Source: Clostridia bacterium
GTDB lineage: Bacteria > Bacillota > Clostridia > Oscillospirales > Acutalibacteraceae
Assembly: GCA_017461625.1 (NCBI GenBank)
Contig: JAFTXJ010000002.1
Location: forward strand, 62,001-126,000
Reading direction: 5' to 3'
Length of the DNA: 64,000 nucleotides
The notes beneath the pieces were generated by a model that made no database searches, was not told where the DNA came from, and saw nothing but the letters and a program-made list of their open reading frames with translations. The position numbers and the translations under genes are program-made. Positions 4,118 through 47,311 of the stretch are shown here, piece after piece (position 1 is the stretch's first letter; each line of letters begins with the position of its first letter).

Positions 4118-5392
4118 TTAACTCAAACCCTTCTTGTCAAAATTGAAAATTGTTGAAAGCACAATTTCATAGCCTGTTTCAATAGCCTTCGGAACAAGTC
4201 GGTCGTAATTGTCACGGCGGTTATGATAGTAATCAGCAGGTGTCGGGTCCATAGCTGCAAGGCAGGTTGCAGGGATACCTGCCTGGGTGAATGCCGAAGC
4301 ATCTGATGAGCCGAAATAAACGTTGGCAAATTTTAAATCGTTATGACCTGCATCTTTGGCAGATTCCATAACAAGGGAGCTGAATTTAGGGTTGTGACGG
4401 ACTGTGCCTGTCATATCTCTGTTGTAAACATTGAGAAATTCAAGGTCGGTGAGTGTGTCAACACACAAAACAGCAGTTTCAACTCCACTGTTTACATATT
4501 CATCATAATGGTCTTTTGCAAACTTTTTGCAACCTCTGAGTCCTGCTTCTTCACCGTCGGTTACCATGCAGACAACCTCAGTGTTTTCAAAGCGGATGTC
4601 TGCTTCGTGAAGCATTTTAACTGCACATGCGGCAGCAAAAGTGCCTGTAAGGTTATCGTTTGCACCGGGAACAAGATTTTTGTAATCAACAAAAGTTAAA
4701 AGACCGATCATTGCAACTGTTGTAAAGGGGAAGAGTATGTAGCTTGCAATTTTCACAAAGTCTGCAAAGGAGTTTTCAACACCTTTTGCCATAAGAATAA
4801 TCTGGATAACAGCCACAACAAAGCTGGCAATTGCCCCAACAATAACCGAGGCGAGCACTGCTGCCTGACCCTTACCGCCAAAATAATACATATGGCGCCA
4901 TTCATAAACAGAGTCGCAATGACCGCTGATAATAATTCTTCTTTTGGTTTCACCGGTTGCTTTTCTTGTGGCAACAAGGTTGTGACCTTCTACCTTTTTG
5001 CAAAACGGGTCGCAGAACTGTTTGTATAAAAGAAATTCCATAACTGTGATGAAAAGACCAACGCCGACAACGGCACCGAAAATGATGTTAAGTAAAAGAT
5101 AAGAAATTATATTTGCGAAAAACAAAGCAAAAGAGATAACACCTGCCGCCATAACAGCAATGCTTACAACTTTGGTGAAGCTGAAAAATGCCTTCGGTGC
5201 AACGGTATAGCCTTCATAATGTGTTTCATCAACCGAATCACCGAGGAATTTTTTGATTTCTTCCTGTGATTTATAGCAACCCTCGCAGCCTGATTCACGG
5301 GGTCCGCAGGTTTTTATGATGTGCTCAATACCCTTGACTGTTTCTTTAACATTCTTTTTGATTATGTCTTTCGGAAATTCTGAAATTTTCAA
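4118..5392 (-). CDS. Membrane-embedded M28-family zinc peptidase
   Basis: 424 residues. GAGG lies eight bases before TTG 5392, which I take as the start (GTG 5401 overlaps the ribosome site). The M28 metal ligands are all present: SGHCDS (first His), GANDN (bridging Asp), GEEAGLRG (catalytic Glu pair), LCVDTL (Asp) and DYYHNRRDN (last His). Two membrane helices precede the catalytic domain (about residues 70-120). Two more (about 177-203 and 215-237) sit between the first His and the bridging Asp, where other M28 enzymes have a short loop. It should be an aminopeptidase-type enzyme working at the membrane. First gene of a two-gene operon with the esterase. Confidence 0.8.
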   Translation of the reverse strand: MKISEFPKDIIKKNVKETVKGIEHIIKTCGPRESGCEGCYKSQEEIKKFLGDSVDETHYEGYTVAPKAFFSFTKVVSIAVMAAGVISFALFFANIISYLLLNIIFGAVVGVGLFITVMEFLLYKQFCDPFCKKVEGHNLVATRKATGETKRRIIISGHCDSVYEWRHMYYFGGKGQAAVLASVIVGAIASFVVAVIQIILMAKGVENSFADFVKIASYILFPFTTVAMIGLLTFVDYKNLVPGANDNLTGTFAAACAVKMLHEADIRFENTEVVCMVTDGEEAGLRGCKKFAKDHYDEYVNSGVETAVLCVDTLTDLEFLNVYNRDMTGTVRHNPKFSSLVMESAKDAGHNDLKFANVYFGSSDASAFTQAGIPATCLAAMDPTPADYYHNRRDNYDRLVPKAIETGYEIVLSTIFNFDKKGLS

Positions 5393-5489
5393 AACAATCA
5401 CCTCAAAAGAATTTTACATTTTGAGAACTAAAAAATCAATAGATTTCATAAATTTTATGTTTATTTTTATTAACTTACTTTCTTAAATG

Positions 5490-5518
5490 TTGTTTTATTC
5501 TGTGAAATTTGTTATAAT
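5490..5518 (+). promoter_or_regulatory. Sigma-A-type promoter of the glycosyltransferase-queH operon
   Basis: TTGTTT (5490-5495) and TATAAT (5513-5518) are separated by 17 bases, about 35 bases before the GTG start of the first glycosyltransferase. Confidence 0.6.
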
Positions 5519-5554
5519 TATTACATTAAGTGGATGATAAGTGAGGTGATTGAT

Positions 5555-6601
5555 GTGTCGGCTGAAAAACTTGTAAGCATTGTGATACCTGTTTATAATG
5601 TTGAAAAGTATCTCCCCCAATGTCTTGACAGTGTTATGGGGCAGACTTATAAAAACATTGAAATAATCTGTGTCAACGACGGCTCACCCGACGGCAGCGA
5701 AAAAATTATTGCTGATTATATGAAAAAAGACGGTCGGATTGTTCTCATCAGTCAAAAAAACCAGGGCCTTTCAGGGGCAAGAAATACAGGGCTTGAAAAT
5801 GCCAAAGGTGAATACATAGTTTTCCTTGACAGCGATGATTGGATTGACCATGAAACGGTTGAGGTGGCTCTTGGTGAGGCTGAAAAAGAAAATGCTCAGC
5901 TTGTTATGTGGAGCTATGTAAGAGAATTCCCGACAGTGTCGGTGCCTAAAAATGTTTTTGAAAAAGACCGGATTGCTTTTGAGGGTGACAGTCTGAAAAA
6001 CATTCTCCATCGCAGAATGGCAGGTCTTATGGGTGAAGAGCTTCGTGACCCGAGCAATGCGGATTCAGCCGTAACGGCCTGGGGCAAGATGTATAAAACA
6101 CAGTGCCTTGAGGATTGCCGTTTTGTTGACACAAAAATTATCGGCACGGAGGATGCACTGTTTTCGCTCCATGCCCTTTGCTATGTTGAGAAAGCGGTGT
6201 TTGTTAATCGCCATTTCAATCATTACCGTAAGGATAACGACACCTCTTTAACAAGAAAGTATAAACCACGGCTTTTTTCTCAGTGGCAGGAACTTTATTC
6301 AAGAATGGGAGAGGTTATCAGAAACAATAATCTTCCTTTTGAAGAGGCTCTCAATAACCGAATCGCTTTAAGCATAATAGGGCTTGGTCTCAACGAGCTG
6401 ATTAACCCTGTTTCTCACAAAGAAAAAATCAGAAAATTAAAGGGAATTATTACCTGCGAAAGATATAAAAAAGCATATTCAGCTTTGCAGACAAAGTATT
6501 TCCCGATTCATTGGAAGCTGTTTTTTACCCTTTGCAAAACGGGTAACGCAACAGGTGTTTATGTTTTATTAAATTGTATAGATAAAATCATCAGTAAATA
6601 A
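5555..6601 (+). CDS. Family 2 glycosyltransferase
   Basis: 348 residues from GTG 5555, chosen because GAGG lies eight bases upstream; an ATG at 5534 has no ribosome site. The N-terminal 100 residues are a GT2 (GT-A fold) domain: VSIVIPVYNVEKYL, nucleotide-binding VNDGSPDGS, and the metal-binding LDSDDW. The C-terminal 240 residues are mostly helical with no obvious membrane span. Inverting transfer of a sugar from a nucleotide sugar to a cell-surface polymer is the family role; donor and acceptor cannot be deduced. First gene of a five-gene operon. Confidence 0.88.
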   Translation: MSAEKLVSIVIPVYNVEKYLPQCLDSVMGQTYKNIEIICVNDGSPDGSEKIIADYMKKDGRIVLISQKNQGLSGARNTGLENAKGEYIVFLDSDDWIDHETVEVALGEAEKENAQLVMWSYVREFPTVSVPKNVFEKDRIAFEGDSLKNILHRRMAGLMGEELRDPSNADSAVTAWGKMYKTQCLEDCRFVDTKIIGTEDALFSLHALCYVEKAVFVNRHFNHYRKDNDTSLTRKYKPRLFSQWQELYSRMGEVIRNNNLPFEEALNNRIALSIIGLGLNELINPVSHKEKIRKLKGIITCERYKKAYSALQTKYFPIHWKLFFTLCKTGNATGVYVLLNCIDKIISK

Positions 6602-6613
6602 CGGAGAGTTAAA

Positions 6614-7534
6614 ATGAAAACTTTAACGGTTTTTACCCCTGCGTATAACAGAGCTTATTCAATTCACCTCTGCTACGAAAGTCTTTGCCGTCAGACCTGC
6701 AAGGATTTTGTGTGGCTTGTAGTTGATGACGGTTCAACAGATGAAACTGCCGAGCTTATTAAAAAATGGCAGAGTAGAGATAACGGCTTTGAAATTAAAT
6801 ATGTCTACAAAGAAAACGGCGGTATGCACACAGCCCACAACACAGCTTATGAAAACATTGACACTGAGCTTAATGTGTGCATTGACTCTGACGATTATAT
6901 GACAGATGATGCCGTTGAAAAAATCATTACCCTCTGGAAAGAAAAGGGAAATCCCCAATATGCCGGAATTATTGCCCTTGATAAAACCGAGGACGGCAAA
7001 ATTATCGGCTCAATTCTTGAAACCGACCGTGAAGACACCACCCTCACAGGCTTTTATCAACGTGGGGGCAAGGGTGACAAAAAGCTGGTTTACAGAACGG
7101 ATGTTATGAAAAAATATCCGCCCTACCCTGTTTTTGAGGGTGAAAAGTATGTGTCCCTTGCTTATAAATATTCTCTTGCTGATGAAGAGTACACCTTGCT
7201 TATTTTAAATGAGGCTTTGTGTGTGGTTGAATATATGGCAGACGGTTCGAGTACAAATATGTTTAAGCAATATCTTCGCAACCCCAAGGGCTTTGCTTTT
7301 ATCCGAAAGGTTGATATGCAACGGGCAAAAAGCTTTAAAGAGGTTTTTCGCTGTGCCGTTCACTATGTTTCAAGTTCAGTTATTTCAAAAAATAGAAGCT
7401 TTATTAAAGAGTCACCCAAAAAGGTTGCAACTGTTTTGGCTATACCCTTTGGAATTGCATTGACTTTTTATATTAAAAAGAAGTCAGGCGGATATATGAA
7501 TGTTAACGGATTTAATGAAAAGAGGAAAAATTAA
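6614..7534 (+). CDS. Family 2 glycosyltransferase
   Basis: 306 residues with GGAGAG before the ATG, 12 bases after the previous stop. GT2 motifs are LTVFTPAYNRAYS, VVDDGSTDET and IDSDDY. The C-terminal segment around 275-293 (VATVLAIPFGIALTFYIKK) is hydrophobic and could dock the protein to the membrane. Its pairing with the preceding GT2 enzyme suggests sequential sugar additions on the same surface glycan. Its stop codon shares a base with the next start (TAATG), so the downstream gene is coupled. Confidence 0.88.
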   Translation: MKTLTVFTPAYNRAYSIHLCYESLCRQTCKDFVWLVVDDGSTDETAELIKKWQSRDNGFEIKYVYKENGGMHTAHNTAYENIDTELNVCIDSDDYMTDDAVEKIITLWKEKGNPQYAGIIALDKTEDGKIIGSILETDREDTTLTGFYQRGGKGDKKLVYRTDVMKKYPPYPVFEGEKYVSLAYKYSLADEEYTLLILNEALCVVEYMADGSSTNMFKQYLRNPKGFAFIRKVDMQRAKSFKEVFRCAVHYVSSSVISKNRSFIKESPKKVATVLAIPFGIALTFYIKKKSGGYMNVNGFNEKRKN

Positions 7535-8157
7535 TGCACATTCCATCATCAACAACAAAAGAAATTGAAGTTCTCACCTTTGAGGATGCACTCAAAGGCA
7601 GAACCGACGGCAAAGATTACGACACCGAAAAATGGCTGTATGTTCCCGATTTTTATTCGGAATACCGTTATATATTAGGCACAAGGGGAGTAAAACCTCT
7701 TATCTGTATAGGCATAAACCCCTCAACAGCAAAGCCCGATGATCTTGATAATACCCTCAAATCTGTTGAGCGAATCGCATTAGGTAACGGATTTGACTCT
7801 TTTATAATGTTTAATGTTTATGCTCAGCGTGCCACAAGTCCAAAGGATATGGAAAAAGAATGTAATTATGATTTACATAATGAAAATATGAAGGCTTTTG
7901 AGTATATTCTCGGCATTTCAAGGGATGCTCCTGCCGTGTGGGCAGCCTGGGGAACAATAATTAACGAGCGTGATTACCTTGCACCGTGTGTTATGGATAT
8001 GATAGAGCTTGGCAAAAAGTACGGTGCAAAGTGGTACACTGCCGGCAAGCGTTCCAAAAACGGAGGTCATCCGCATCATCCGCTGTATCTTAAAAAAGAC
8101 AGTGTGCTTGATGAGTTTCAGGTTGAAGATTATGTTAAGGGATTGATGCTTAAATGA
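7534..8157 (+). CDS. DUF1643 family protein
   Basis: 207 residues. The conserved DUF1643 blocks are visible: ICIGINPSTAKPDDLDNT near the N-terminal third, FIMFNVYAQRATSP in the middle, and AAWGTI followed by the C-terminal GGHPHHPLYL. The family has no established biochemical function; the Asn-Pro-Ser-x-Ala and His-Pro-x-His motifs look like a nucleotide or metal pocket, which is only a guess. It is translationally coupled on both sides (one-base overlap with the glycosyltransferase, ATGA overlap with the next gene), so it belongs firmly to this operon. Confidence 0.85.
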   Translation: MHIPSSTTKEIEVLTFEDALKGRTDGKDYDTEKWLYVPDFYSEYRYILGTRGVKPLICIGINPSTAKPDDLDNTLKSVERIALGNGFDSFIMFNVYAQRATSPKDMEKECNYDLHNENMKAFEYILGISRDAPAVWAAWGTIINERDYLAPCVMDMIELGKKYGAKWYTAGKRSKNGGHPHHPLYLKKDSVLDEFQVEDYVKGLMLK

Positions 8158-8960
8158 AATATCTCTGGGCGGCAATCATAACGCTCTGGTTGGTTGTTGC
8201 TGTTTATTTTTATATAAACTATGTGCTTTTTCACAAACATTTCGGAAAAGCAGGTAAAAAGAAAAATCCTCCTGCTCAATGCAAGGAGAATGTTGGCTCA
8301 TATGAAAGAATAAATATTACATCTGCAGATCAGTTTATTTTAACGGCAAAGCTTTTTACCCCTGCAAACGGTGACGGAAAAAGGAGCGTGCTTCTTTGCC
8401 ACGATTACAGAAGCAACGGTGAAGCTGACTTTGCAAAAGAGCTTGATTTTTACAAAAACCTCGGCTACAATATTTTGCTGATTGAACAGCGTTGCCACGG
8501 CAAAAGTGCAGGTGACACCACTTCAATGGGTATAACCGAAAGCTATGATGTTGTTTATTGGTGCAGTTGGCTTGAGCTCAGGTTCGGTACGGGATGTCCT
8601 ACTGTTGTTCACGGCAAGGGAATGGGTGCGTTTGCCGCCCTTGTTGCCCTTGCAAGCCCCGAACTTCCGCAGAATGTTATTAAAGCAGTTGTAAGCGAAG
8701 TGTATGATAGCGTTTTTGAAAAATTTTCGCAAACGGTTAAAAATAAATACGATTTTTGGAGCAAGGTAATTATTCCTACGGTTAATATGTTTTACCGTCT
8801 TAACACCGGATTTGATATGAGAGATGCCGATATAAAAAACTTTGCAAAAAAAATCAGCACCCCTGTGCTGTTTGATTGTAAAGATAAAGAAACTCAAGCT
8901 TTTAAAACCGTCAGAATGGCTGTCAGCGGTGAAGGGCTTGAAAAATTTTTGAATGAGTGA
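8154..8960 (+). CDS. Membrane-anchored alpha/beta-hydrolase-fold protein lacking the nucleophile
   Basis: 268 residues. An N-terminal membrane helix (residues 4-24) precedes an alpha/beta-hydrolase core with VLLCHDYRSNG and LIEQRCHGKSAGDTTSMG, the latter matching the D/E-x-R-x-x-G-x-S-x-G loop of this fold. At the nucleophile elbow the expected G-x-S-x-G reads GKGMG (in VVHGKGMGAF), so the Ser is replaced by Gly. No convincing catalytic His remains near the short C terminus. It is therefore probably not an esterase but a binding or scaffold protein, or a decaying gene that is still open. ATGA overlap with the preceding gene and overlap with queH show co-translation. Confidence 0.75.
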   Translation: MKYLWAAIITLWLVVAVYFYINYVLFHKHFGKAGKKKNPPAQCKENVGSYERINITSADQFILTAKLFTPANGDGKRSVLLCHDYRSNGEADFAKELDFYKNLGYNILLIEQRCHGKSAGDTTSMGITESYDVVYWCSWLELRFGTGCPTVVHGKGMGAFAALVALASPELPQNVIKAVVSEVYDSVFEKFSQTVKNKYDFWSKVIIPTVNMFYRLNTGFDMRDADIKNFAKKISTPVLFDCKDKETQAFKTVRMAVSGEGLEKFLNE

Positions 8961-9576
8961 AATTATGGAAAAACAAAATTATCAAAAATTGATGGAAGAG
9001 CAGATAGCATCCCTTGATGGTGTGCCGACCCTTTTGCTCCAGAGCTGTTGCGGACCATGCAGTTCATATGTTTTAGAGGTGTTGGCTCAGTATTTTAATG
9101 TGACGGTGCTTTATTATAACCCCAACATCTATCCTGAAGAGGAGTATAATAAAAGACTTTCTGAGCAGATTAAAATTATTAACTCAATGCCATTAAAAAA
9201 TAAGGTTGAGCTTATGCCTTGTGACTATGATGAGCAAGAGTTTCTCGATATAGCCAAAGGCTTTGAATCTGAGCGTGAAGGGGGAGCAAGGTGCAAAGAG
9301 TGCTTTGTGTTACGCCTTGGAAAAACCGCTGCCCTTGCCAAAGAAAAAGGCTTCGACTTTTTTACAACAACCCTTACAGTCAGCCCTCACAAAAATGCAC
9401 AGCTTCTTAATCAGATAGGAAAAGAGCTTGAGGAAAAGTACGGCGTTAAATATCTCTTTGCAGATTTCAAAAAGAAAGAGGGATATAAACGCTCAATTCA
9501 GCTGTCAAAAGAATATGACCTGTACCGTCAGGAATACTGTGGCTGCAGATTTTCGCTTAAAGTGGAGCAACCTTAA
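8953..9576 (+). CDS. queH: Epoxyqueuosine reductase QueH
   Basis: 207 residues. QueH (formerly DUF208) replaces QueG in many Firmicutes and reduces epoxyqueuosine to queuosine in tRNA. The signature adjacent cysteines are in LLQSCCGPCSSYV (Cys32, Cys33, Cys36), with further conserved CKECFVLRL and C-terminal YCGCRFS cysteines that bind the iron-sulfur and second metal centre. Two in-frame starts exist (ATG 8953 and ATG 8965); neither has a strong ribosome site, consistent with coupling to the upstream gene. Finding it at the end of an operon of glycosyltransferases is probably convenience rather than shared function. Its stop is nine bases from that of the converging next gene. Confidence 0.92.
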   Translation: MSEIMEKQNYQKLMEEQIASLDGVPTLLLQSCCGPCSSYVLEVLAQYFNVTVLYYNPNIYPEEEYNKRLSEQIKIINSMPLKNKVELMPCDYDEQEFLDIAKGFESEREGGARCKECFVLRLGKTAALAKEKGFDFFTTTLTVSPHKNAQLLNQIGKELEEKYGVKYLFADFKKKEGYKRSIQLSKEYDLYRQEYCGCRFSLKVEQP

Positions 9577-9585
9577 ACTCAATAG

Positions 9586-10119
9586 TTATGCCTGAAACAC
9601 CGAGGGGACAAAATCTCTTGGTGCTTTTGTTTTAAGCTGAATGTAAAATAATTCTAATGCGTGAACGGTGGCAATGGTGCAAATAACACCCATCCATATT
9701 TTTCCGTCCATTATTTGCATTGTAAGGGGCAAAACAAAAACCGAACCGCCAAAAATTTTGCCAAGGTAGGTATGAGGCAAAAAGACTTTTTTGAATCTCG
9801 CTTTGGTGACGATTGCACAAATTCCGAATAAAATGCCTGCACTTAAAATCCAGATAAAAATCCATAACGGAACAAGCTTTTTAAAAATGAGCACTTTAGT
9901 TAAGGCAAGGTATGTTAAAACATCACCGATTGTGTCAAGCGAAGCACCGAGGGTGCTTGAGCTTTTTGTTTTTCTGGCAATCGGTCCGTCAATTAAATCG
10001 GTGAAACCACATAAAATATAAACGGATAGAAACACAGATGTAATATCTTTACAGAAAAACAGAAAGATTGCACCTGCAACGCGACTGAGCGAAATGATGT
10101 TTGCTAAATGTTTTTTCAT
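9586..10119 (-). CDS. CDP-alcohol phosphatidyltransferase
   Basis: 177 residues from ATG 10119, which has AGGAG eight to nine bases upstream; a longer frame to 10155 lacks one. The family motif D-x2-D-G-x2-A-R-x8-G-x3-D-x3-D is complete (DLIDGPIARKT, then LGASLDTIGD). Five to six membrane segments surround it. It transfers a phosphatidyl group from CDP-diacylglycerol to an alcohol in phospholipid synthesis. The sequence resembles PgsA-type enzymes, but the acceptor (glycerol phosphate, inositol phosphate or other) cannot be settled here. Convergent with queH without a visible terminator between them. Confidence 0.88.
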   Translation of the reverse strand: MKKHLANIISLSRVAGAIFLFFCKDITSVFLSVYILCGFTDLIDGPIARKTKSSSTLGASLDTIGDVLTYLALTKVLIFKKLVPLWIFIWILSAGILFGICAIVTKARFKKVFLPHTYLGKIFGGSVFVLPLTMQIMDGKIWMGVICTIATVHALELFYIQLKTKAPRDFVPSVFQA

Positions 10120-33164: not shown

Positions 33165-34034
33165 TTATTCGTAGATTTGTGCAAGTTCTGAACCGATTTC
33201 AAACCATGCATGGTTAACAAGGTCTTCGGGAAGAACATTTGTAAATACAACAGCCATTCCCATTGCGGCAAACATTGCAATAGGCATTGCAAAGGGCTCG
33301 AGCTTTGTGAGTTTGAATTTTTTGCATACTATGTCAAGAATAAGCATAAACACAACTGCACAGATGAGCACGAGAATTGACATGAGACCAGCAGAGCCCG
33401 TGATTGTCTTAACTTTGAGAATTTGGCCTGCTTCGTTAACAATGCTGTTGCCGGCGGCATCAAGAACATTGCTCTTCTGAACGGTGTAAGAGTAAATTTC
33501 TCTTGATACAAAAGCCATAACAATGCCGATAAATGCAGCTGCTGAAATAGCGTCACCGAATTTCTGTGACTTTTCGCTTTTGTTAACTGTTGCACCGATT
33601 TTCTTCTGAAGCTTTTTGCAAAGGAAGGGGAGAAGAAGCAATGGGGCAATGCTACCCAATGTCATAGCCCATGCGATTGTAGCAAATTGCTGAGGGTCAG
33701 CAACTGAATGCTTGAGCGATTCGCCCCAGAAGTCAAGGGCGGTCTGTGCTGCTGTTGTTTCATAAGCGAGGTTGCCGATAACAGAGAGTCTGATCCACGG
33801 AAGAACAATACCCAACGCATTTGCAAGAACAATAATTGTTGCAAGAATTGAAATTGCAGGGGCAACGGTGAAAACTGCACTTGAAACCATGGTTGTTTTA
33901 AGTGTTTCTTTCGGAATACCTAATTCCTTGGCTCTCTTTAATGACTTAACAAGGAAAAATACGGATTGTGCGATAACGAAAGCAATAATGCCCAGGGCTA
34001 CCGCATACATAAACGGACTTTCTTTAAAATCCAT
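33165..34034 (-). CDS. DUF5058 family membrane protein
   Basis: 289 residues from ATG 34034, eight bases after AAGGAG (GTG 34043 overlaps that site). About seven membrane helices. The N-terminal MDFKESPFMYAVALGI, then SSAVFTVAPAISILATI and GSIAPLLLLPFLCKK are typical of the DUF5058 proteins of Firmicutes, whose function is unknown. Together with the following small membrane protein it forms a two-gene unit. No substrate clue is present in the neighbourhood, since flanking genes have their own promoters. Confidence 0.8.
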   Translation of the reverse strand: MDFKESPFMYAVALGIIAFVIAQSVFFLVKSLKRAKELGIPKETLKTTMVSSAVFTVAPAISILATIIVLANALGIVLPWIRLSVIGNLAYETTAAQTALDFWGESLKHSVADPQQFATIAWAMTLGSIAPLLLLPFLCKKLQKKIGATVNKSEKSQKFGDAISAAAFIGIVMAFVSREIYSYTVQKSNVLDAAGNSIVNEAGQILKVKTITGSAGLMSILVLICAVVFMLILDIVCKKFKLTKLEPFAMPIAMFAAMGMAVVFTNVLPEDLVNHAWFEIGSELAQIYE

Positions 34035-34100
34035 TTTTACCACTCCTTAATAATATTTGTTAGAATTTTATCACAGTTTGTTTAAAACTTCAACCGTCAA

Positions 34101-34784
34101 TTAAAGTTTATTTATAACCTCAAGCAAAATATCAGCCAAAGCTGTTTCGGCAAGAGCATTCATTTTTTTGTAATCTTCAGCGGCAGAATCTTCACTGTCG
34201 TCAGACACCTTGCGGATGCTGAGCATAGGAACATCACAACAATGGCAAACTGAAGCGATTGCACCTGTTTCCATATCAAAGGTATTGATACCGAAAAGGT
34301 TATAATATTCCTCTTTCTGTGAATCTTTAGTTAAAAAGTAATCGCCTGTTCCGCATTTGAGACGACGGATTCCCATTTCTTTGGGAACGGCGTCAAGCAA
34401 GTTTTTGTCAGCTTCATAAACATATTCCTGACCGGGTTTTACACCGAGGTCACGACCGAGAGCAGTGAGGTCAAAGTCACACTCTGTAAAAGAAGTGCCT
34501 GCAAAAACAGTGCCTCTGTTAACACCCTTAACTCCGCCCGAAAGACCGATGTTCATAATGCAGTCCGGTTTGAATTTGTCAATGAGCATTGCAGTTGCGG
34601 TGGCAGCGTTTACTTTGCCGATTCTGCACTTGATAGCGGTAACATCCTTACCGTTTACGGAAAAAGAAATTGTTTCGTAAGAATTTATTTCACCTTTTTT
34701 TGCTCCCATGGGGGCAACACTTTCAACCAAAGGCAAAAACTCCATATCGTCAGCAATAACGACACCGATTTTTTTGTATTCCAT
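34101..34784 (-). CDS. mtnN: 5'-methylthioadenosine/S-adenosylhomocysteine nucleosidase
   Basis: 227 residues from ATG 34784 (AAGGAG upstream; the longer frame to 34841 runs through the promoter). PNP/UDP phosphorylase superfamily, MTAN type: N-terminal IGVVIADDMEFLPLVE, the NIGLSGGVK phosphate/ribose loop, FDMETGAIASVC (ribose-binding Met-Glu) and IRKVSDDSEDSA with catalytic Asp. It removes adenine from MTA and SAH, recycling methyl-cycle by-products. Some spacing differs from E. coli Pfs, so a related nucleosidase substrate is possible. Single-gene unit with a perfect promoter. Confidence 0.85.
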   Translation of the reverse strand: MEYKKIGVVIADDMEFLPLVESVAPMGAKKGEINSYETISFSVNGKDVTAIKCRIGKVNAATATAMLIDKFKPDCIMNIGLSGGVKGVNRGTVFAGTSFTECDFDLTALGRDLGVKPGQEYVYEADKNLLDAVPKEMGIRRLKCGTGDYFLTKDSQKEEYYNLFGINTFDMETGAIASVCHCCDVPMLSIRKVSDDSEDSAAEDYKKMNALAETALADILLEVINKL

Positions 34785-34812
34785 AAATCTGTCTCCTTTT
34801 TGAATTTTAAAT

Positions 34813-34841
34813 ATTATACTTCCCTTTTTAAAGAGTGTCAA
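34813..34841 (-). promoter_or_regulatory. Consensus promoter of the nucleosidase gene
   Basis: TTGACA and TATAAT on the minus strand are exactly 17 bases apart, a perfect sigma-A consensus, about 29 bases before the ATG. Confidence 0.85.
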
Positions 34842-37324: not shown

Positions 37325-37353
37325 TTGACTTTTATATGACATTTTGGTAAAAT
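37325..37353 (+). promoter_or_regulatory. Promoter of the aminotransferase-transketolase operon
   Basis: TTGACT (37325-37330) and TAAAAT (37348-37353) are separated by 17 bases, about 40 bases before the first gene. Confidence 0.75.
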
Positions 37354-37393: not shown

Positions 37394-38152
37394 TTGACAG
37401 ATGCAAGAACTTTGGCATACATAAATATGTACGCCGTACTCGGTACTTTGGAGAATCTTTGTGAGCTCAGCGAAGAGGCAAGGCAGCTTGTGAAAACCAA
37501 AAAGCCCGTATCAATAGGTTTTGAGGTTAAGGGCGGTCCCAGTGCCACAATCACATTTAAAAACGGACGTTGCCGTATGCAGCAGGGCTGCGGTGAATGT
37601 GATGTTAAGCTTCCTTTCAGCTCTTGTGAAAAATTCAACGGTCTTATTGACGGAACTGTTACACCAATTCCCTCAAAAGGATTTACTAAAATCGGATTTT
37701 TGCTTAAGCAGTTTACACCCCTTACCGATATGCTTTCAAAGTATATGCGACCAAGCGAAGAAGACCTGAAGGATGAAAAGTTTTTTGAACTCAGCACAAA
37801 TCTTCTTTTCTACACAATTTCTGTTGCAATTTCTCAGATTGCAAATAATGACGAAATCGGTCAGTTCAGTGCAAAGCATATTCCTGACGGTAACATCAAG
37901 CTTTCAATCGCAGGCGGTCCTTCTTCAACAATAAGCGTTAAAGACCATCGCCTTGTTACGGTTAAAAAGTGCCCAGATAAATACCGTGCTCTTATGGAAT
38001 TTGCCGATATGAAATTGGCTCACGACCTCTTTGACGGCAAGGTTAACGCCATTGCAAAGGTTGGCGAGGGTGAAATCGTTATGAAGGGCATGATCAACAT
38101 GCTTGACAACATGAACAGAATTCTTGACAGAGTAGCACTCTATCTTGCATAA
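37394..38152 (+). CDS. Unrecognised protein with two SCP2-like halves, first gene of the transketolase operon
   Basis: 252 residues from TTG 37394, seven bases after AGGAGG. I recognise no named family. The protein seems to hold two similar halves (about 47-120 and 150-250): each has a beta-rich stretch (VSIGFEVKGGPSATITFKNG; NIKLSIAGGPSSTISVKDH) followed by a helix, a G-K/D-V/T turn and a closing helix (FDGKVNAIAKVGEGEIVMKG then ILDRVALYL). That order resembles SCP2 sterol-carrier domains, which hold hydrophobic ligands. No signal peptide. The fifth gene of the operon is a probable distant paralogue. A carrier or subunit role for the enzymes in between is inference from position. Confidence 0.6.
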   Translation: MTDARTLAYINMYAVLGTLENLCELSEEARQLVKTKKPVSIGFEVKGGPSATITFKNGRCRMQQGCGECDVKLPFSSCEKFNGLIDGTVTPIPSKGFTKIGFLLKQFTPLTDMLSKYMRPSEEDLKDEKFFELSTNLLFYTISVAISQIANNDEIGQFSAKHIPDGNIKLSIAGGPSSTISVKDHRLVTVKKCPDKYRALMEFADMKLAHDLFDGKVNAIAKVGEGEIVMKGMINMLDNMNRILDRVALYLA

Positions 38153-38164
38153 GGAGGCTTTCCT

Positions 38165-39427
38165 ATGGCTTTTAAAATTAATAAATATAAAAAGAGTAAC
38201 GAGCTCTTCCAGAGAGCTACAAAAGTAATCCCTTCAGGTGTTTACGGTCACCTTGGCCCTGCTGAAGGTAACTTTATCCCGGTTAGTGCATGGCCATTCT
38301 TTTCACAGAAGGCAGAGGGTGCATATTTTTGGGATGTTGACGGCAACAAATTCATCGACTATATGTGTGCATACGGTCCCAACATTTTAGGTTATAACGA
38401 CCCCGATGTTGATGCTGCCGCTATGGAGCAGGCTAAAATCGGTAACTGCACAACTTCACCGTCATACAAAATGGTTGAGCTTGCAGAGCTTCTTGTTGAC
38501 ACAGTTGCTTGTGCTGACTGGGCTTTCTTCGCAAAGAACGGTAACGATGCAACCTCATGTGCAGTTCTTGCCGCTCGTAATGCAACACACCGCAAAAAGA
38601 TTATCTTTGTAAACGGCTTCTATCACGGTGTTTCTGCATGGACTCAGAAGATTGACTATCCCGGTGTTCTCCCTGAGGATGTTGCAAACAACCTTTATGT
38701 TGATTGGAACGATATTCCTGCTCTTGAAAAATTGATTGAAGAGAACAAGGGTGAAATCGCAGCATTTATTTCAACACCTTATATGCACGGAAACTACAAA
38801 GACAATGAGCTTCCTGCGGATGGATACTGGAAAAAGGTTCGCGAACTCTGCACAGCTAACGGTATTGTTCTTATCATTGACGACGTTCGTGCAGGTTGGC
38901 GTCTTGACCTTGCAGGTTCTGACCATTACTACGGCATCGAAGCTGACCTTATCTGCTTCTGTAAAGCTCTTGCAAACGGTTGGAACGTTTCTGCTATCTG
39001 TGGTAAGGATTGGATTAAAGATGCAGTAAGCGGTCTTTCATACACAGGTTCTTATTGGATGAGTGCTGTTCCCTTTGCAGCAGCAATTGCAAATATCAAC
39101 AAGCTTAAGAAAATTGACGCTCCCAAGCTTTTGAGAGAAAAATCAGTTAAGCTTCTTGATGGCCTCAAATCAGCAGCAGACAACAATGGCTTTGATTTGG
39201 TTGTTTCAGGCGAACCTTCACTTTTCTATCTCAGAATTGCAAACGATGACTCAATGATGATTCATCAGGATTGGGTTGCAGAAATGGTTAAGAGAGGTAT
39301 TTTCATTTCAAGTCACCACAACCACTTTATGAATGCCGCAATTTCTGACGAAGATATCAAGCGTACAGTTGACATTGCCAACGAAGCATTCAAAGTTACC
39401 AAGAAAATGCATCCTGAAGCATTTTAA
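38165..39427 (+). CDS. Class III PLP-dependent aminotransferase (glutamate-1-semialdehyde aminomutase-like)
   Basis: 420 residues, AAGGAGG upstream. Class III motifs: VIPSGVYGHLGPAEGNFIPV at the start, GNKFIDYMCAYGPNILGYNDP, FFAKNGNDATSCAVLAARN (PLP phosphate loop), GFYHGVSAW, VLIIDDVRAGWRLDLAG (Asp that holds the pyridine nitrogen) and the Schiff-base Lys267 in CFCKALANGW. It is closest in look to HemL-type enzymes, but no heme genes are near. With the two transketolase subunits behind it, it probably makes or uses an amino-ketose or amino-aldehyde. The substrate is unknown. Confidence 0.85.
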   Translation: MAFKINKYKKSNELFQRATKVIPSGVYGHLGPAEGNFIPVSAWPFFSQKAEGAYFWDVDGNKFIDYMCAYGPNILGYNDPDVDAAAMEQAKIGNCTTSPSYKMVELAELLVDTVACADWAFFAKNGNDATSCAVLAARNATHRKKIIFVNGFYHGVSAWTQKIDYPGVLPEDVANNLYVDWNDIPALEKLIEENKGEIAAFISTPYMHGNYKDNELPADGYWKKVRELCTANGIVLIIDDVRAGWRLDLAGSDHYYGIEADLICFCKALANGWNVSAICGKDWIKDAVSGLSYTGSYWMSAVPFAAAIANINKLKKIDAPKLLREKSVKLLDGLKSAADNNGFDLVVSGEPSLFYLRIANDDSMMIHQDWVAEMVKRGIFISSHHNHFMNAAISDEDIKRTVDIANEAFKVTKKMHPEAF

Positions 39428-39468
39428 TCAGGGTTCATAAATAAATTTATATGTAGGGAGGAACTACA

Positions 39469-40338
39469 ATGCCATTATCCAAATCAGAATGGTTAGCTCT
39501 CGAAAAGAAAGCTCACGAACTCCGTAACCTCTGCCTTGACACTACATATTGGGCAGGCAGTGCTCATATCGGTGGCGATATGAGCGTTATGGATATGATG
39601 ACCGTTCTTTATCACAAATATCTCAATATCAAGGTTGATGACCCCAACTGGGAAGACAGAGACCGTTTCATTTTAAGTAAAGGTCACGCAGGCGTTGCCT
39701 ATGCAGCAGTTCTTGTTGACAAAGGCTTCAATGACCCCGAACAGCTTAAAACATTCAACCTTTCAAACTCAAAAATGGGTATTCACCTTGACTCGAACAA
39801 GGTTGTTGGTGTTGATGCTTCAACAGGTTCACTCGGTCACGGTCTTTCAATCGCTCTCGGTACTGCTCTTGCAGCAAGAGTTTTAGGTAAGGATTACAAA
39901 ACATACTGTATCCTTGGCGACGGTGAATGTGACGAAGGCTCAAACTGGGAAGCAGCAATGTCAATCGCTCACTTCAAGGCAACAAATGTTATTTCATTTG
40001 TTGACCGCAATAAGTGTATGATTGACGGCCGCACAGAAGACGTTATGAACCTTGAACCCTTTGTTGACAAATGGAAGGCATTCGGCTTTATCGTTAAAGA
40101 AGTTGACGGTCATAACCTCAGCGAGCTTTGTGATGCTATTGACTTCGCTCTTAATCAGAACGAAGCTCCCGTTATGATTGTTGCCAATACAATCAAGGGT
40201 GCAGGTATCGACTTTATGGCAGACGATTATCACTGGCATTACGGTGCTATTGATGAAGGCAAATATCAGCAGGCTAAAGAAAGCCTTGAAAAATATTACA
40301 AACAGCGTGTAGCTCGTGCAGAAAAGGAGGGTGTATAA
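39469..40338 (+). CDS. Transketolase, N-terminal (TPP-binding) subunit
   Basis: 289 residues with GGGAGG before the ATG. It covers the pyrophosphate domain of a split transketolase: GSAHIGGDMSVMDMMTVLYHKYL, DRFILSKGHAGVAYAA, GSLGHGLSIALGTALAARVLG and the ThDP motif GDGECDEGSNWEAAM ... FVDRN (GDG-x(n)-N). Residues binding Mg2+ and diphosphate are present. It needs the following gene for the pyrimidine domain. Split transketolases also serve special pathways outside the pentose phosphate cycle, so the location beside an aminotransferase suggests a dedicated role. Confidence 0.92.
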   Translation: MPLSKSEWLALEKKAHELRNLCLDTTYWAGSAHIGGDMSVMDMMTVLYHKYLNIKVDDPNWEDRDRFILSKGHAGVAYAAVLVDKGFNDPEQLKTFNLSNSKMGIHLDSNKVVGVDASTGSLGHGLSIALGTALAARVLGKDYKTYCILGDGECDEGSNWEAAMSIAHFKATNVISFVDRNKCMIDGRTEDVMNLEPFVDKWKAFGFIVKEVDGHNLSELCDAIDFALNQNEAPVMIVANTIKGAGIDFMADDYHWHYGAIDEGKYQQAKESLEKYYKQRVARAEKEGV

Positions 40339-40339
40339 T

Positions 40340-41359
40340 ATGGCAGGCGGACTTACATATACAGCTCTTGACTCAACTGAACTCTCAACAGCCGAAATTT
40401 ACGGCCAGACACTCGTTGAATTAGGTAAAGAACATCCCGAAATCGTAGGTCTTACAGCAGACCTTGCAGGTTCAACTAAAATCGGTGTATTCGGTAAGGC
40501 ATACCCAGACCGTTTCTTCAATGTTGGTATTGCTGAGCAGAATATGTTCGGTGTTGCCGCAGGTATGGCAAAGGCGGGTCTTGTACCTTTCCTTTCAACA
40601 TTCTCTGTTTTCGCTTCCTTAAGAAGTGCTGACCAGCTTCACACAGATATTTGCTATCAGAATGTTAATGCAAAGATTATTGCAACTCATTCAGGCACAT
40701 CCTTCGGTCAGGCAGGTTCAACTCACCACGCTATCTGCGATCTTGCAGTTGTTCGCTCAATGCCTAACGTTACACTTATCTGCCCTGCAGACGGTGTTGA
40801 AACAGCCGAAGCTGTTGTTGCAGCATATGAAAACAAAGGTCCTTACTACATCAGAATCAACCGTGGCTTTGACCGCGTGCTTTACGGTAAGGATTATCCC
40901 CGTGAATACAAATTTGAAGTAGGCAAGGCTGTTGAGGTTAACCCCGGAACAGACATCACTGTTATTGCTTGCGGTTCTTGTGTATTCCAGGCTTATCAGG
41001 CAGCAAAGTTCCTTGAAAATGCTGACGGACTTAAAGTTCGTGTTCTTGATATGCACACAATCAAACCCATCGACAAAGAAGCTATCCTTAAAGCTGTTCA
41101 GGATACTCGCCGTATCATCACAGTTGAAGACCACAACGTTATCGGCGGTCTCGGCTCAGCTGTTGCAGAGGTTATGGCTGAAGCAGGTAAGGGTTGTGCA
41201 TTCACACGCCTTGGTATTCAGGATACATTTGCTCCTATCGGACTTCACGAAGATATTATGTCAAACCTCGGTATTGACTGTAACGGTATCATCAACGCTA
41301 TCCGTGAAGCTATGAACAAAGACTTTGAAGAGGACGACAACTGGGACGACGAAGTTTAA
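40340..41359 (+). CDS. Transketolase, C-terminal (pyrimidine-binding) subunit
   Basis: 339 residues from ATG 40340, one base after the stop of the N-terminal subunit and with GGAGG upstream. The pyrimidine domain carries VGIAEQNMFGVAAGMA, with the Glu that activates the TPP aminopyrimidine, then STHHAICDLAVVRSMPN and the C-terminal domain with IACGSCVFQAYQAAKFL and VEDHNVIGGLGSAVAE. Together the two subunits form a whole transketolase that moves a two-carbon unit from a ketose to an aldehyde. The acidic tail (FEEDDNWDDEV) is unusual. Confidence 0.92.
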   Translation: MAGGLTYTALDSTELSTAEIYGQTLVELGKEHPEIVGLTADLAGSTKIGVFGKAYPDRFFNVGIAEQNMFGVAAGMAKAGLVPFLSTFSVFASLRSADQLHTDICYQNVNAKIIATHSGTSFGQAGSTHHAICDLAVVRSMPNVTLICPADGVETAEAVVAAYENKGPYYIRINRGFDRVLYGKDYPREYKFEVGKAVEVNPGTDITVIACGSCVFQAYQAAKFLENADGLKVRVLDMHTIKPIDKEAILKAVQDTRRIITVEDHNVIGGLGSAVAEVMAEAGKGCAFTRLGIQDTFAPIGLHEDIMSNLGIDCNGIINAIREAMNKDFEEDDNWDDEV

Positions 41360-41394
41360 TTTCTTCACTATCCTACAGAAAGGAATGATTTATT

Positions 41395-42201
41395 ATGGCA
41401 AACGAAACCGTATTGACCAACAAAATATTTCTTAATGCCGTTTTGCCTCTTGTAAAGGTTATTGCAACAGACGTACCTTCTCTTGCTAAAAAGTTTGAGA
41501 ATATGCACGCTGTTTTTCAGGTAAGTGCACTTGACCCCGATTCACCGGGCGGAAAGGTAGCAACTCATTTCACAGTTAATAACGGTGAATGGGTGGTTTG
41601 TGCCGATAAGGTTGCAACCAACGCTTTTGTTGACCTTGAGTTTAAAAATCTTGAAGCTATGAACAGCTTCTTCAAGGGCAAAATCGGCCCTGCAACCCTC
41701 CCCAAGATGAAGGGTGCTCTCAAGTATCCCAAGGTTTTTGCAGCTTTATTGATGACTCTTCTCAAAATGTCATCTCTTTTGACTGCGAAAGCTGCCCCTG
41801 AAGCTGAAGAAGATAAGCTTCTTATGGTTAAGTGCTTCTTCTATCTTCTTTCATCGGGTATCAGCCAGCTTAACAAGCAGGGTCATGAGGCTGTTCACAA
41901 TTGGACTAAAACAAGCCCCGACCGTGTTTATGCATGGGCTGTTGACGGTCACCCCGAGGTTTCTGCTTATCTGAGAATTAAAGCAGGTAAATCCCGTTCA
42001 GGCAGAGGCGTTTATAAAAGAGCAATGCCGTTCTTCACAATGCGTTTCGATTCTCTCGACAGTGCATTAGGTATTCTTCTTTCAACAGACGATATGCTTG
42101 ACTCCACCAAAAAAGGTAAGCTCATTATGGACGGTGCTCCCGAATTCGGTGCACAGATTGGTGAGTATATGCTCACCGTTGCAGCTTACGCACAAGGATA
42201 A
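41395..42201 (+). CDS. Unrecognised protein with SCP2-like halves, last gene of the transketolase operon
   Basis: 268 residues, AAAGGA upstream of the ATG. Not recognised. It shares layout with the first gene of the operon: two halves with a beta-rich part followed by a helix and a G-K turn (NAFVDLEFKNLEAMNSFFKGK in the first, MRFDSLDSALGILLSTDD ... GKLIMDGAPEFGAQIG in the second), as in SCP2 folds where a final helix covers the ligand tunnel. The middle (about 100-150) is hydrophobic and helical (VFAALLMTLLKMSSLL). No signal peptide. It ends at a strong terminator, so it closes the operon. A ligand-holding role is a hypothesis. Confidence 0.6.
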   Translation: MANETVLTNKIFLNAVLPLVKVIATDVPSLAKKFENMHAVFQVSALDPDSPGGKVATHFTVNNGEWVVCADKVATNAFVDLEFKNLEAMNSFFKGKIGPATLPKMKGALKYPKVFAALLMTLLKMSSLLTAKAAPEAEEDKLLMVKCFFYLLSSGISQLNKQGHEAVHNWTKTSPDRVYAWAVDGHPEVSAYLRIKAGKSRSGRGVYKRAMPFFTMRFDSLDSALGILLSTDDMLDSTKKGKLIMDGAPEFGAQIGEYMLTVAAYAQG

Positions 42202-42205
42202 AATT

Positions 42206-42236
42206 AATCGGCAGCCTTTCGGTTGCCGATTTTTTA
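42206..42236 (+). terminator. Terminator of the transketolase operon
   Basis: ATCGGCAGCC and GGTTGCCGAT form a ten-pair stem (one G-U) around TTTC, followed by TTTTT. Confidence 0.85.
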
Positions 42237-45469: not shown

Positions 45470-47311
45470 CTATCTTTTGCCCATTGGTTTTTTACCACCC
45501 ACCATACTTCCACCGGGCATTCCCGGAGCACCGTTCATATTGCCCATTGAGCCTGAGGATGAATAGAGAATATCCTTCATTTCAACTTCAGTTTTTTCGG
45601 AGCCTGTATTTAAAGTATAAACTTCGCCTTCCTTAATTTCGGGTGAGCTTATAATTACAGAGTTGAATTGTTTAGGTGAAGTCCATGAAACAATTGTTTT
45701 GTTATTTGAATCAGTGAGAGTGATTTTTGAATTTGCCTGCTGAGTGCTTACATTTACCATCATTGTTCCTTGCTCGGCAGAAGAAAAGTTTTGTGCCATA
45801 CCTGATGAGCCTGAGCAAATAAAAATACCACCTGTTATGCTCGCTGAAGAACCGTAATCAAGGGCTCCGTTGCCGCTGTTTGTCGGGCCTGAAAGGTAGG
45901 TTGTGCCACCAGAAATTTGAAGCGAGCCGTTAGAATCAATTCCGTCACCTGATGCGTCTATATTCAGCATTCCTCCGCTTATTTTAATATATGATGAATC
46001 AGAAGCTGTACCGAATTGGTCAGGGCGACCCATCATTCCGCCAAAACCGCTTTCGTCGTTTCCGCCTGCTGCGTTCATTCCGTCGTCACTTGCAACAAGA
46101 TAGATGCTTCCTCCTGTTACATCAATGCTCTGACCTTCAAGACCTTCATAGCTTTCGGTGATTTTTATTGTGCCGCCCGAAACCGTCAGATTATTGTCTG
46201 CGTGGAAACCGTCATCGCCTGTTGCAATATTGAAAGTACCGCCTGCGATTTTAACACTGCCGTTAGCGTGAATGGCATCATCGGCACAGTTAAGATTAAA
46301 TTTGCCGTTTTTGATTGTAAGATTGCCTGCCGTTTTTATGCCTTTGAGGCTCTCGGAATCTTCTGTGGTTATGTTTTGCAAATACCCCGGGTGTTGCATA
46401 AAGAAATCGTTCTTGTTTTTTAGTTCTGCATTTTCACTGCCACCGCCTGATTTAACCGTGAATGTTCCGTTGTCTATAAGAACATACGCTGCACCGCTGA
46501 ATCCATCAAGGTCAGAGGTAACATTAAATGTGCCGTCAGAAATGTAAAGAAAGCCCGAAGCTTCATCGTCAGCATTTTCAGCGTGAAAACCGTCTTTTCC
46601 GCTGGTGATGTTGAATGAACCGTTTTGGATACGGATACTGTCTTTACCTGTTACACCGTGGCTTGCAGATGTGATTGCGTAGTTTCCGTTGGTGAAAACA
46701 AGGTCATCTTTTGAAACAATTCCGTGACCTGCCTTGGCATTGATAGCGAGGCTTCCTGTACCGTTTAAAGTAAGGTCGCATTTTGAAAAAATAACAGAGT
46801 CAATGTTGTTGTCATCAACAGCGGAGTATGTTCCACCGTTGGTAAGGGTGTTTTTGCTGCCAGTGCCGGCTGTCACAAAAACCTTGTCAGCTTCTTTTGC
46901 ATAAATTGCTGCCGAAGTTTTGCTTGTGATATTTGCATTTTTTAAAACAATTTGCACCTTTGCAGTTTCGGGGGCATCAACAATAACTGAGCCGTCAGAC
47001 AGTGTGCCTGAAAAAGCATAGATTCCGTCAGCAGTGATTGTGATGTTACCGCCTGAAATTTTAACGGAAGAATCACTGCATTGAGCCGAAGCTCCGTTTA
47101 ATATGACAGCGATGCTTTCATTTTCACTATATGTGCCTTCGGAATCTCGGTCTGAAAACATATCATCGGTATCTGTCGGGATTTCTGCAACTGTTGTTGT
47201 TTCATTGGTTTTGTCGGCGGAGTTGCCGGTAACGCTGTTATCTGATTTTGAGCAAGAGCAAAACAGTATGGTTACACACATCAACAGAGCCGGAATTTTT
47301 ATTTTTTTCAT
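45470..47311 (-). CDS. Lipoprotein with DUF4353-type carbohydrate-binding beta-helix
   Basis: 613 residues with GAGGTG before the ATG. The signal peptide ends in a lipobox (CVTILFCSC, Cys20). A Thr/Asp-rich linker leads into a long repetitive beta-solenoid whose units contain I-x-G-G-x-x-x-I-x-x-x-x-D-G (for example KIAGGTFNIATGDDGFHAD, LQISGGTTYLSG). This is the DUF4353 'carbohydrate-binding domain-containing' type. A Gly/Met/Pro-rich tail follows (GNMNGAPGMPGGSMVGG). It is last in an operon with a DUF4956 membrane protein and a VTC-type polyphosphate polymerase, a set seen together in other Firmicutes. It is presumably the surface member of that set; the ligand is unproven. Confidence 0.85.
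   Translation of the reverse strand: MKKIKIPALLMCVTILFCSCSKSDNSVTGNSADKTNETTTVAEIPTDTDDMFSDRDSEGTYSENESIAVILNGASAQCSDSSVKISGGNITITADGIYAFSGTLSDGSVIVDAPETAKVQIVLKNANITSKTSAAIYAKEADKVFVTAGTGSKNTLTNGGTYSAVDDNNIDSVIFSKCDLTLNGTGSLAINAKAGHGIVSKDDLVFTNGNYAITSASHGVTGKDSIRIQNGSFNITSGKDGFHAENADDEASGFLYISDGTFNVTSDLDGFSGAAYVLIDNGTFTVKSGGGSENAELKNKNDFFMQHPGYLQNITTEDSESLKGIKTAGNLTIKNGKFNLNCADDAIHANGSVKIAGGTFNIATGDDGFHADNNLTVSGGTIKITESYEGLEGQSIDVTGGSIYLVASDDGMNAAGGNDESGFGGMMGRPDQFGTASDSSYIKISGGMLNIDASGDGIDSNGSLQISGGTTYLSGPTNSGNGALDYGSSASITGGIFICSGSSGMAQNFSSAEQGTMMVNVSTQQANSKITLTDSNNKTIVSWTSPKQFNSVIISSPEIKEGEVYTLNTGSEKTEVEMKDILYSSSGSMGNMNGAPGMPGGSMVGGKKPMGKR

Follow-up and report, generated by a model that had tools for sequence, protein, structure and literature searches.

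A five-gene operon was analyzed in a 64,000-nucleotide stretch (the window) of the genome of a Clostridia bacterium of the family Acutalibacteraceae (GenBank assembly GCA_017461625.1, contig JAFTXJ010000002.1, positions 62,001 to 126,000). The operon, which lies on the plus strand, encodes a tandem SCP2-like protein (gene A), a class III aminotransferase related to FumI (B), the two subunits of a split transketolase with a substituted active site (C and D), and a second, divergent tandem SCP2-like protein (E). It is widely conserved and built from known kinds of enzyme. In our estimate, the chances are about even that these proteins form a lipid-adapted, two-step transketolase-transaminase route acting, in either direction, on a sphingoid-like 2-amino-1,3-diol. 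Many uncultured gut bacteria carry the unit, which hints at a so far undescribed route for the synthesis or degradation of sphingosine-like fats. No description of the five-gene set was found among the titles listed in searches of the open-licence literature, a negative result of little weight because one of these searches also missed a known paper on the Carboxydothermus split transketolase. The kinship of B to FumI and the separability of A-B from C-D-E are additions to a preliminary description of this DNA made from its sequence.

The five open reading frames lie at the positions and on the strand given in that description, as do a sigma-70-like promoter (37325..37353, plus strand; TTGACT-17-TAAAAT with TG preceding the -10 element, a 10/12 match) and an intrinsic terminator (42206..42231, plus strand; 11 pairs and a T-run). 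By itself, the motif scan that gave the promoter is weak, with 20 matches in the region versus 13.9 expected (standard deviation, 4.1). Using an alignment of the E family, 80 related loci were fetched from a genome collection, out of at least 374 stretches encoding a relative. In 53 of the 63 members of this set that could be tested, a promoter match of at least 10/12 was present within 180 bases 5' of gene A, compared with 8.9% of 315 simple base shuffles. A hairpin with a T-run within 80 bases 3' of gene E was found in 56 of 79 loci, counted without a shuffled control. The conservation of promoter and terminator among relatives agrees with the earlier proposal of a single transcription unit.

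Gene order was stable. As judged by tblastn, on which the counts of order and strand rest, 65 of the 80 loci carried the complete set A-B-C-D-E, collinear and with all genes on the same strand. In the remaining 15, the first gene lay no more than 664 bases from a contig end, and upstream genes alone were missing. The median intergenic gaps across loci were 20, 74, 8, and 59 bases from A to E. Among 200 genomes of the window's family, gene A was found in 48 and gene E in 45, and E never occurred without A. Outside the family, E relatives are rare. In a sample of the order, 6 of 295 genomes encoded them, five of them from the window's family, with its own genome counted. In a sample of the phylum, relatives were found in 5 of 398 genomes, namely, the own genome and four from three other families. 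Three of these four outsiders (loci L093, L094, and L096, from two other families) carried all five genes in order, and the fourth (G630) carried two separate modules. The neighborhood search proposed in the preliminary description thus placed the set in many genomes and not in this one alone. By their source titles, the related loci belong to uncultured Clostridia, Oscillospiraceae, and Ruminococcaceae, with the guts of herbivores as the sampling site of many, and some sample names presumably denote termite and digester origins. No gene A relative was found in the viral contigs searched.

Gene C (39469..40338, plus strand, 289 residues) encodes the N-terminal subunit of the split transketolase and matches PF00456; gene D (40340..41359, plus strand, 339 residues) encodes the C-terminal subunit and matches PF02779 and PF02780. 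The start of D was taken as the ATG at 40340, and a longer form from a GTG at 40316 is possible. Together with the PF00202 match of gene B, these assignments confirm that the middle genes are a class III aminotransferase and both transketolase halves. The thiamine diphosphate-binding, pyrimidine-binding, and C-terminal domains and the catalytic His and Glu residues are all those of a transketolase. For each subunit, the best solved match was the split transketolase of Carboxydothermus hydrogenoformans (6yak/6yaj), which has the same two-gene layout but keeps the equivalents of R358 and D469, both replaced in the operon enzyme.

Residues are given in what we take to be the numbering of Escherichia coli transketolase. 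The numbers are consistent with those in PMC6310800 and PMC7661550. Residues were mapped by alignment and counted over 110 loci, with the exclusion of rows below 40% identity (e.g., the fused transketolase of L097) or cut by a contig end; the rows are not all independent, since L062/L140, L077/L158, L078/L142, L079/L124, L080/L177, and L100/L170 are duplicate loci with the same sequence. The equivalents of H26, H66, H100, H261, E411, H461, and H473 were invariant (95 to 100 rows read per site). R358 and D469, which mark the canonical sugar-phosphate enzymes, were replaced in D in 96 of 98 and 100 of 100 rows, respectively, the former by Ala, Ser, Thr, or Gly and the latter by Ala in 99 and Ser in 1. 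In C, the R91 equivalent was Asn in 94 of 95 rows (one unread), G99 was Met, Ile, or Val in all 95, P101 was Leu in 93 of 95, and P27 was Ile, Leu, Val, Phe, or Ala in all 95. The S385 equivalent was Ser in all 98 operon enzymes read and is Ala in the canonical split transketolases of this genome and five others.

In the E. coli enzyme, D469 presumably touches the hydroxyl group adjacent to the aldehyde carbon. It is described as linked by salt bridges to R91 and H100 and by hydrogen bonds to G99 and H26 (PMC6310800), so that the operon enzyme shows joint changes in three members of a single contact network. Mutations at R358, S385, D469, and R520 are reported to extend E. coli transketolase to aromatic aldehydes (PMC7661550), and D469T is described as accepting propanal, with the formation of a hydrophobic surface (PMC10787763). 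The operon enzyme shares the change at D469 with the engineered variants D469T, D469T/R520Q, and S385Y/D469T/R520Q, and the change at R358 with related work. In contrast to them, it is natural, has Ala instead of Thr, carries R91N, G99M/I, and P101L in addition, and keeps S385 and R520. From the aligned residues, C/D is clearly a transketolase altered in its substrate site, and the substituted sugar contacts suggest a substrate that is more hydrophobic and resembles a sugar less, which supports the hydrophobic compound considered in the preliminary description.

A second, canonical split transketolase is encoded elsewhere in the same genome. In the canonical split enzymes of this genome and five others, D469, R91, G99, and P101 are kept, as is R358 in the five that could be read at this site. 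The preliminary description had left room for a set restricted to this genome with housekeeping transketolase activity; the set recurs widely, and the canonical enzyme is separate from it. In genome G198, a further divergent transketolase copy (L240) lacks most of these residues.

Gene B (38165..39427, plus strand, 420 residues) was placed by its nearest structure, its motifs, and a tree. Among solved structures, B comes closest to the aminopentol aminotransferase FumI of Sphingopyxis MTA144 (6hbs; E value, 3.4e-86), whereas the best glutamate-1-semialdehyde aminomutase reached 3.9e-49. B and FumI are 38% identical over the aligned part and have in common the motifs YGH, MCAYGPN, KNG.DATS, DDVRAG, TGS.W, and HN.F, which the aminomutase lacks. 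In a 19-sequence tree, the B orthologues (support, 0.98) and the FumI group (1.00) formed separate clades joined at a support of 0.88; the rest of the tree comprised a Streptomyces relative, the aminomutase, and two other aminotransferases. By closest characterized relative, motifs, and common clade, B is thus of the FumI type. Among the 25 best NCBIfam matches listed for B, no model reached its cut-off. The aminomutase models scored 232 versus 398 and 212 versus 527.3 bits, and the aminomutase motif GVNSPVR reads GVYGHLG in B, which sets B outside that family. Hydrolyzed fumonisin B1 is a sphinganine analogue. FumI (6hbs/6hbv) is described as transferring the 2-amino group of this compound to pyruvate (PMC2933618).

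Gene A (37394..38152, plus strand, 252 residues, TTG start) scored 23.5 bits with the Pfam SCP2 family (PF02036), for which the cut-off is 21.3, and 9 of 16 members of its own family matched PF02036 at an E value of 1 or less. Gene E (41395..42201, plus strand, 268 residues) matched no Pfam family at an E value of 1 and stays under every Pfam cut-off, that of SCP2 included; in its family, 2 of 17 members gave a weak PF02036 match (best E value, 0.002). The whole-length profiles of A and E matched each other with a probability of 96.5%. When half-profiles were built from 92 A rows and 106 E rows, each split into N and C halves, high probabilities were obtained for A_N with A_C (97.5%), A_N with E_N (96.1%), A_C with E_C (94.8%), and A_C with E_N (81.2%), and low ones for E_N with E_C (10.4%) and A_N with E_C (2.2%). 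The maximum among the reversed-profile controls was 1.3%. An SCP2 profile of 11 rows (14 of 28 loci with the frame found, minus three in the wrong frame) matched A_N at 94.9%, A_C at 94.7%, and E_N at 89.3%. With the three wrong-frame rows included, this profile gave 92.1% for A_N, 73.9% for A_C, 79.1% for E_N, and 0.7% for E_C.

On these comparisons, A and E are most likely both tandem SCP2 proteins, with E_C as the most diverged half. They differ from the SCP2 family in general in having the domains in tandem, and E_C was reached through A_C alone. The SCP2-like nature first suggested for both flanking proteins is therefore supported by profile comparison, not by structure. The suggestion that each consists of two similar halves stands directly for A and indirectly, via A, for E; the direct comparison of the two halves of E did not reproduce it. 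A nearly invariant basic stretch, RxKxGK(S/T)(K/R)(A/S)G(R/K)GxY, lies in the second half of E (41974-42036 of the window). It might serve in transketolase docking or phosphate binding.

The five genes behave as two separable, movable modules, A-B and C-D-E. In G022 and G630, these modules are located on different contigs, and at locus L064 of genome G166 (5149-9872), the order is permuted to C-D-E-A-B. In G188 and G198, A-B is present and the contig runs on for over 3 kb past B, and whole-genome searches found no D or E orthologue in them. G077 resembles these two, but its contig stops at B. Thus, A accompanies the aminotransferase, E accompanies the transketolase, and each enzyme seems to have its own dedicated carrier protein.

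The proposed route follows from the fact that a C2 ketone flanked by hydroxyls at C1 and C3 is both a deaminated sphingoid base and the donor motif of transketolase. B would transfer the amine between a sphingoid-like base, a long-chain 2-amino-1,3-diol, and a 2-oxo acid (for instance, pyruvate). The deaminated product, HOCH2-CO-CH(OH)-R, would carry the transketolase donor motif, and C/D would exchange the HOCH2-CO unit between this ketone and a small aldose phosphate, with a fatty aldehyde (R-CHO) and, e.g., xylulose 5-phosphate as products. A, together with B, and E, together with C/D, would be tandem SCP2 carriers, each handing the hydrophobic intermediate to its enzyme. The loss of D469 agrees with a chain that lacks a C4 hydroxyl. 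Like the sphingosine-1-phosphate lyase route, the proposed route would end in a fatty aldehyde; unlike that route, it would need no kinase or lyase, would remove the amine first, and would retain the C2 unit as a sugar. Among the substrates considered, a sphingoid appears to be the best fit. A little short of even, in our view, are the chances of the fuller proposal, a natural sphingoid transketolase-transaminase pathway, independent of serine palmitoyltransferase and sphingosine-1-phosphate lyase and with its own tandem SCP2 carrier for each enzyme, that would join membrane lipids to the pentose phosphate pathway in gut Clostridia.

As for direction, we lean slightly toward breakdown. At L092, an ALDH3-class gene lies 68 bases 3' of E, and its best and second-best solved matches are an aldehyde dehydrogenase (6k0z) and a fatty aldehyde dehydrogenase (4qgk); at L065, an iron alcohol dehydrogenase gene lies 3' of A-B. 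In the synthetic direction, C/D would condense a fatty aldehyde with a C2 unit, supplied by hydroxypyruvate or a ketose phosphate, into a 1,3-dihydroxy-2-ketone, which B would aminate to a sphingoid-like amino lipid without serine palmitoyltransferase. This direction, whose probability forms part of that given to the chemistry as a whole, is rather unlikely. Synthesis is favored by the reversibility, in principle, of both reactions, by the absence of uptake and hydrolase genes from the unit, by the recurrence of the complete set in two other families of the phylum sample, and by the lack of a link between ALDH3 genes and the operon (see below); against it, the unit lacks a lipid acyltransferase or headgroup gene, and aldehyde-handling enzymes adjoin the modules in the two outlier loci.

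Several observations weigh against a sphingoid substrate. The five-gene unit itself contains no transporter, lipid hydrolase, or acyltransferase, the best NCBIfam label of the ALDH3-class enzyme at L092 is a benzaldehyde dehydrogenase (under the cut-off), and E_C had no direct match to the 11-row SCP2 profile (2.3%). S385, H461, and R520, phosphate contacts among them, are kept in the operon enzyme, which would suit a sugar phosphate in the role of second substrate. The natural D-erythro form of sphinganine has the 3-(R) configuration. The products of yeast transketolase are described as 3-(S) ketols (PMC5573996), so the selectivity would need to differ, or the lipid would have to be of another series. 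An apolar site is also not required for aliphatic aldehydes, since D469E-type variants are reported as best for these (PMC5573996) and the Carboxydothermus enzyme is described as taking bulky aldehydes without the changes seen here (PMC7661550).

The contexts of other FumI-like genes point the same way. B adjoins transketolase and SCP2 genes, unlike FumI, and is equally far (36 to 39% identity) from other proteobacterial relatives. Five such relatives, from the 6 plasmid records looked at among 39 with a match, adjoin class II aldolases (three), four-carbon sugar-acid kinases (two), or ABC transporters, and no transketolase or SCP2 gene was annotated within 8 kb of them. The FumI-like family is therefore not sphingoid specific. 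On a Shinella plasmid (L192, 4106-6280), an alpha-ketoacid dehydrogenase alpha/beta gene, which encodes a thiamine diphosphate enzyme, lies two genes ahead of the FumI-like aminotransferase gene.

Co-occurrence tests in the same 200 genomes gave no support either. Ceramidase (PF04734) was present in 28 of the 48 genomes with gene A and in 12 of the 152 without it, and the fucosidase control (PF01120) was present in 44 of 48 and 52 of 152. Among the 96 fucosidase carriers, the association was weaker, with ceramidase in 27 of 44 A-positive and 8 of 52 A-negative genomes; by genus, it was found in 20 of 32 A-positive genera and 8 of 103 others. Apart from this genus count, the co-occurrence counts ignore kinship and genome size. 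Because the control behaves alike, ceramidase mostly marks versatile degraders, and the link was rejected as evidence. A general link to ALDH3 (fatty-aldehyde dehydrogenase) was likewise rejected: relatives at an E value of 1e-60 occurred in 34 of the 200 genomes at similar frequencies with and without the operon (9/48 and 25/152, by hand count), and none was found in the own genome at this threshold.

The GDxSPN-type motif, which we take to be a ceramidase motif, was present in one (from G040) of four full-length ceramidase-like proteins inspected. A 476-residue ceramidase-like protein of genome G000 (contig C17; L198, 7860-9290), barely above the PF04734 cut-off, is without it. Several operon-bearing genomes have more than one PF04734-type match each.

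A non-lipid substrate, such as a smaller hydrophobic or aromatic amino alcohol or ketol bound by the SCP2 proteins, is unlikely in our judgment. The non-lipid contexts of the FumI-like relatives and the acceptance of aromatic aldehydes by transketolase variants altered at the same sites argue for it, but two tandem SCP2 proteins per unit would better suit a long-chain ligand, and the few annotated neighbors include no aromatic-pathway gene, save for the benzaldehyde dehydrogenase-like label at L092. Very unlikely is an amino-sugar pathway of the antibiotic type or a spare housekeeping transketolase. A split transketolase with an aminotransferase does resemble such clusters, among which the preliminary description had named that of rifamycin (its genes were not part of the comparison), but the contacts to the sugar part of the substrate (R91, R358, and D469) are replaced in C/D, with larger or apolar residues at the neighboring sites, a canonical split transketolase exists elsewhere in the genome, two SCP2 partners are present, and no gene of such a cluster was found among the annotated flanks of the window.

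If the sphingoid route is real, uncultured Clostridia living in herbivore guts and elsewhere can use sugar chemistry to assemble or cleave long-chain amino alcohols, which would add a third route to those of serine palmitoyltransferase and the phosphate lyase. Since sphingoid bases act as signals of dietary and microbial origin, the gene set would then be a marker for their makers or removers. Engineers pair mutated transketolase with aminotransferases, and the operon would encode a natural enzyme pair resembling theirs. In addition, SCP2 proteins would gain a dedicated metabolic job in bacteria, one that is directly testable.

Other genes were seen next to or within the operon at some loci. 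In a few, genes of the GNAT, beta-lactamase-like, endonuclease/exonuclease/phosphatase-family, or alpha/beta-hydrolase-like type are inserted between operon members. One of these, at L100 (2760-3806; same genome as L170), lies between B and C and encodes an endonuclease/exonuclease/phosphatase-family protein with a signal-peptide-like start. This insert had no solved-structure or NCBIfam match at 1e-5, and for want of such matches we do not claim it as a sphingomyelinase. In 3 of the 110 loci, all diverged, a divergently oriented gene of the alanine dehydrogenase/transhydrogenase-alpha type adjoins a module (L066, 824-4479; L097, 4914-7841; L067, 10407-11654). L066 and L097 contain full NAD(P) transhydrogenase genes, and L067 contains the alpha-type gene alone. 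A link to the aminotransferase step via alanine or redox recycling is possible. Related TetR-type regulator genes lie 3' of the operon on the same strand at L093 (6128-6778), L094 (7600-8250), and L099 (10218-10871), loci that come from two different families; those of L093 and L099 are 45% identical, and the regulators may be lipid responsive.

The one SCP2 match of genome G000 in a family search, which did not list gene A, was the C-terminal part of a protein at L186 (contig C14, 4462-6501) that resembles what we take to be an SdsA1-type alkyl sulfatase. In the window, a DUF5058 protein and a nucleoside phosphorylase/nucleosidase-type gene are encoded on the minus strand at 33165-34841. A nucleosidase-like cluster, recognized by eye, lies 5' of the operon and on its strand in 10 of the cluster's 13 loci. 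The protein encoded at 45470-47311 of the window contains two Cthe_2159 carbohydrate-binding stretches.

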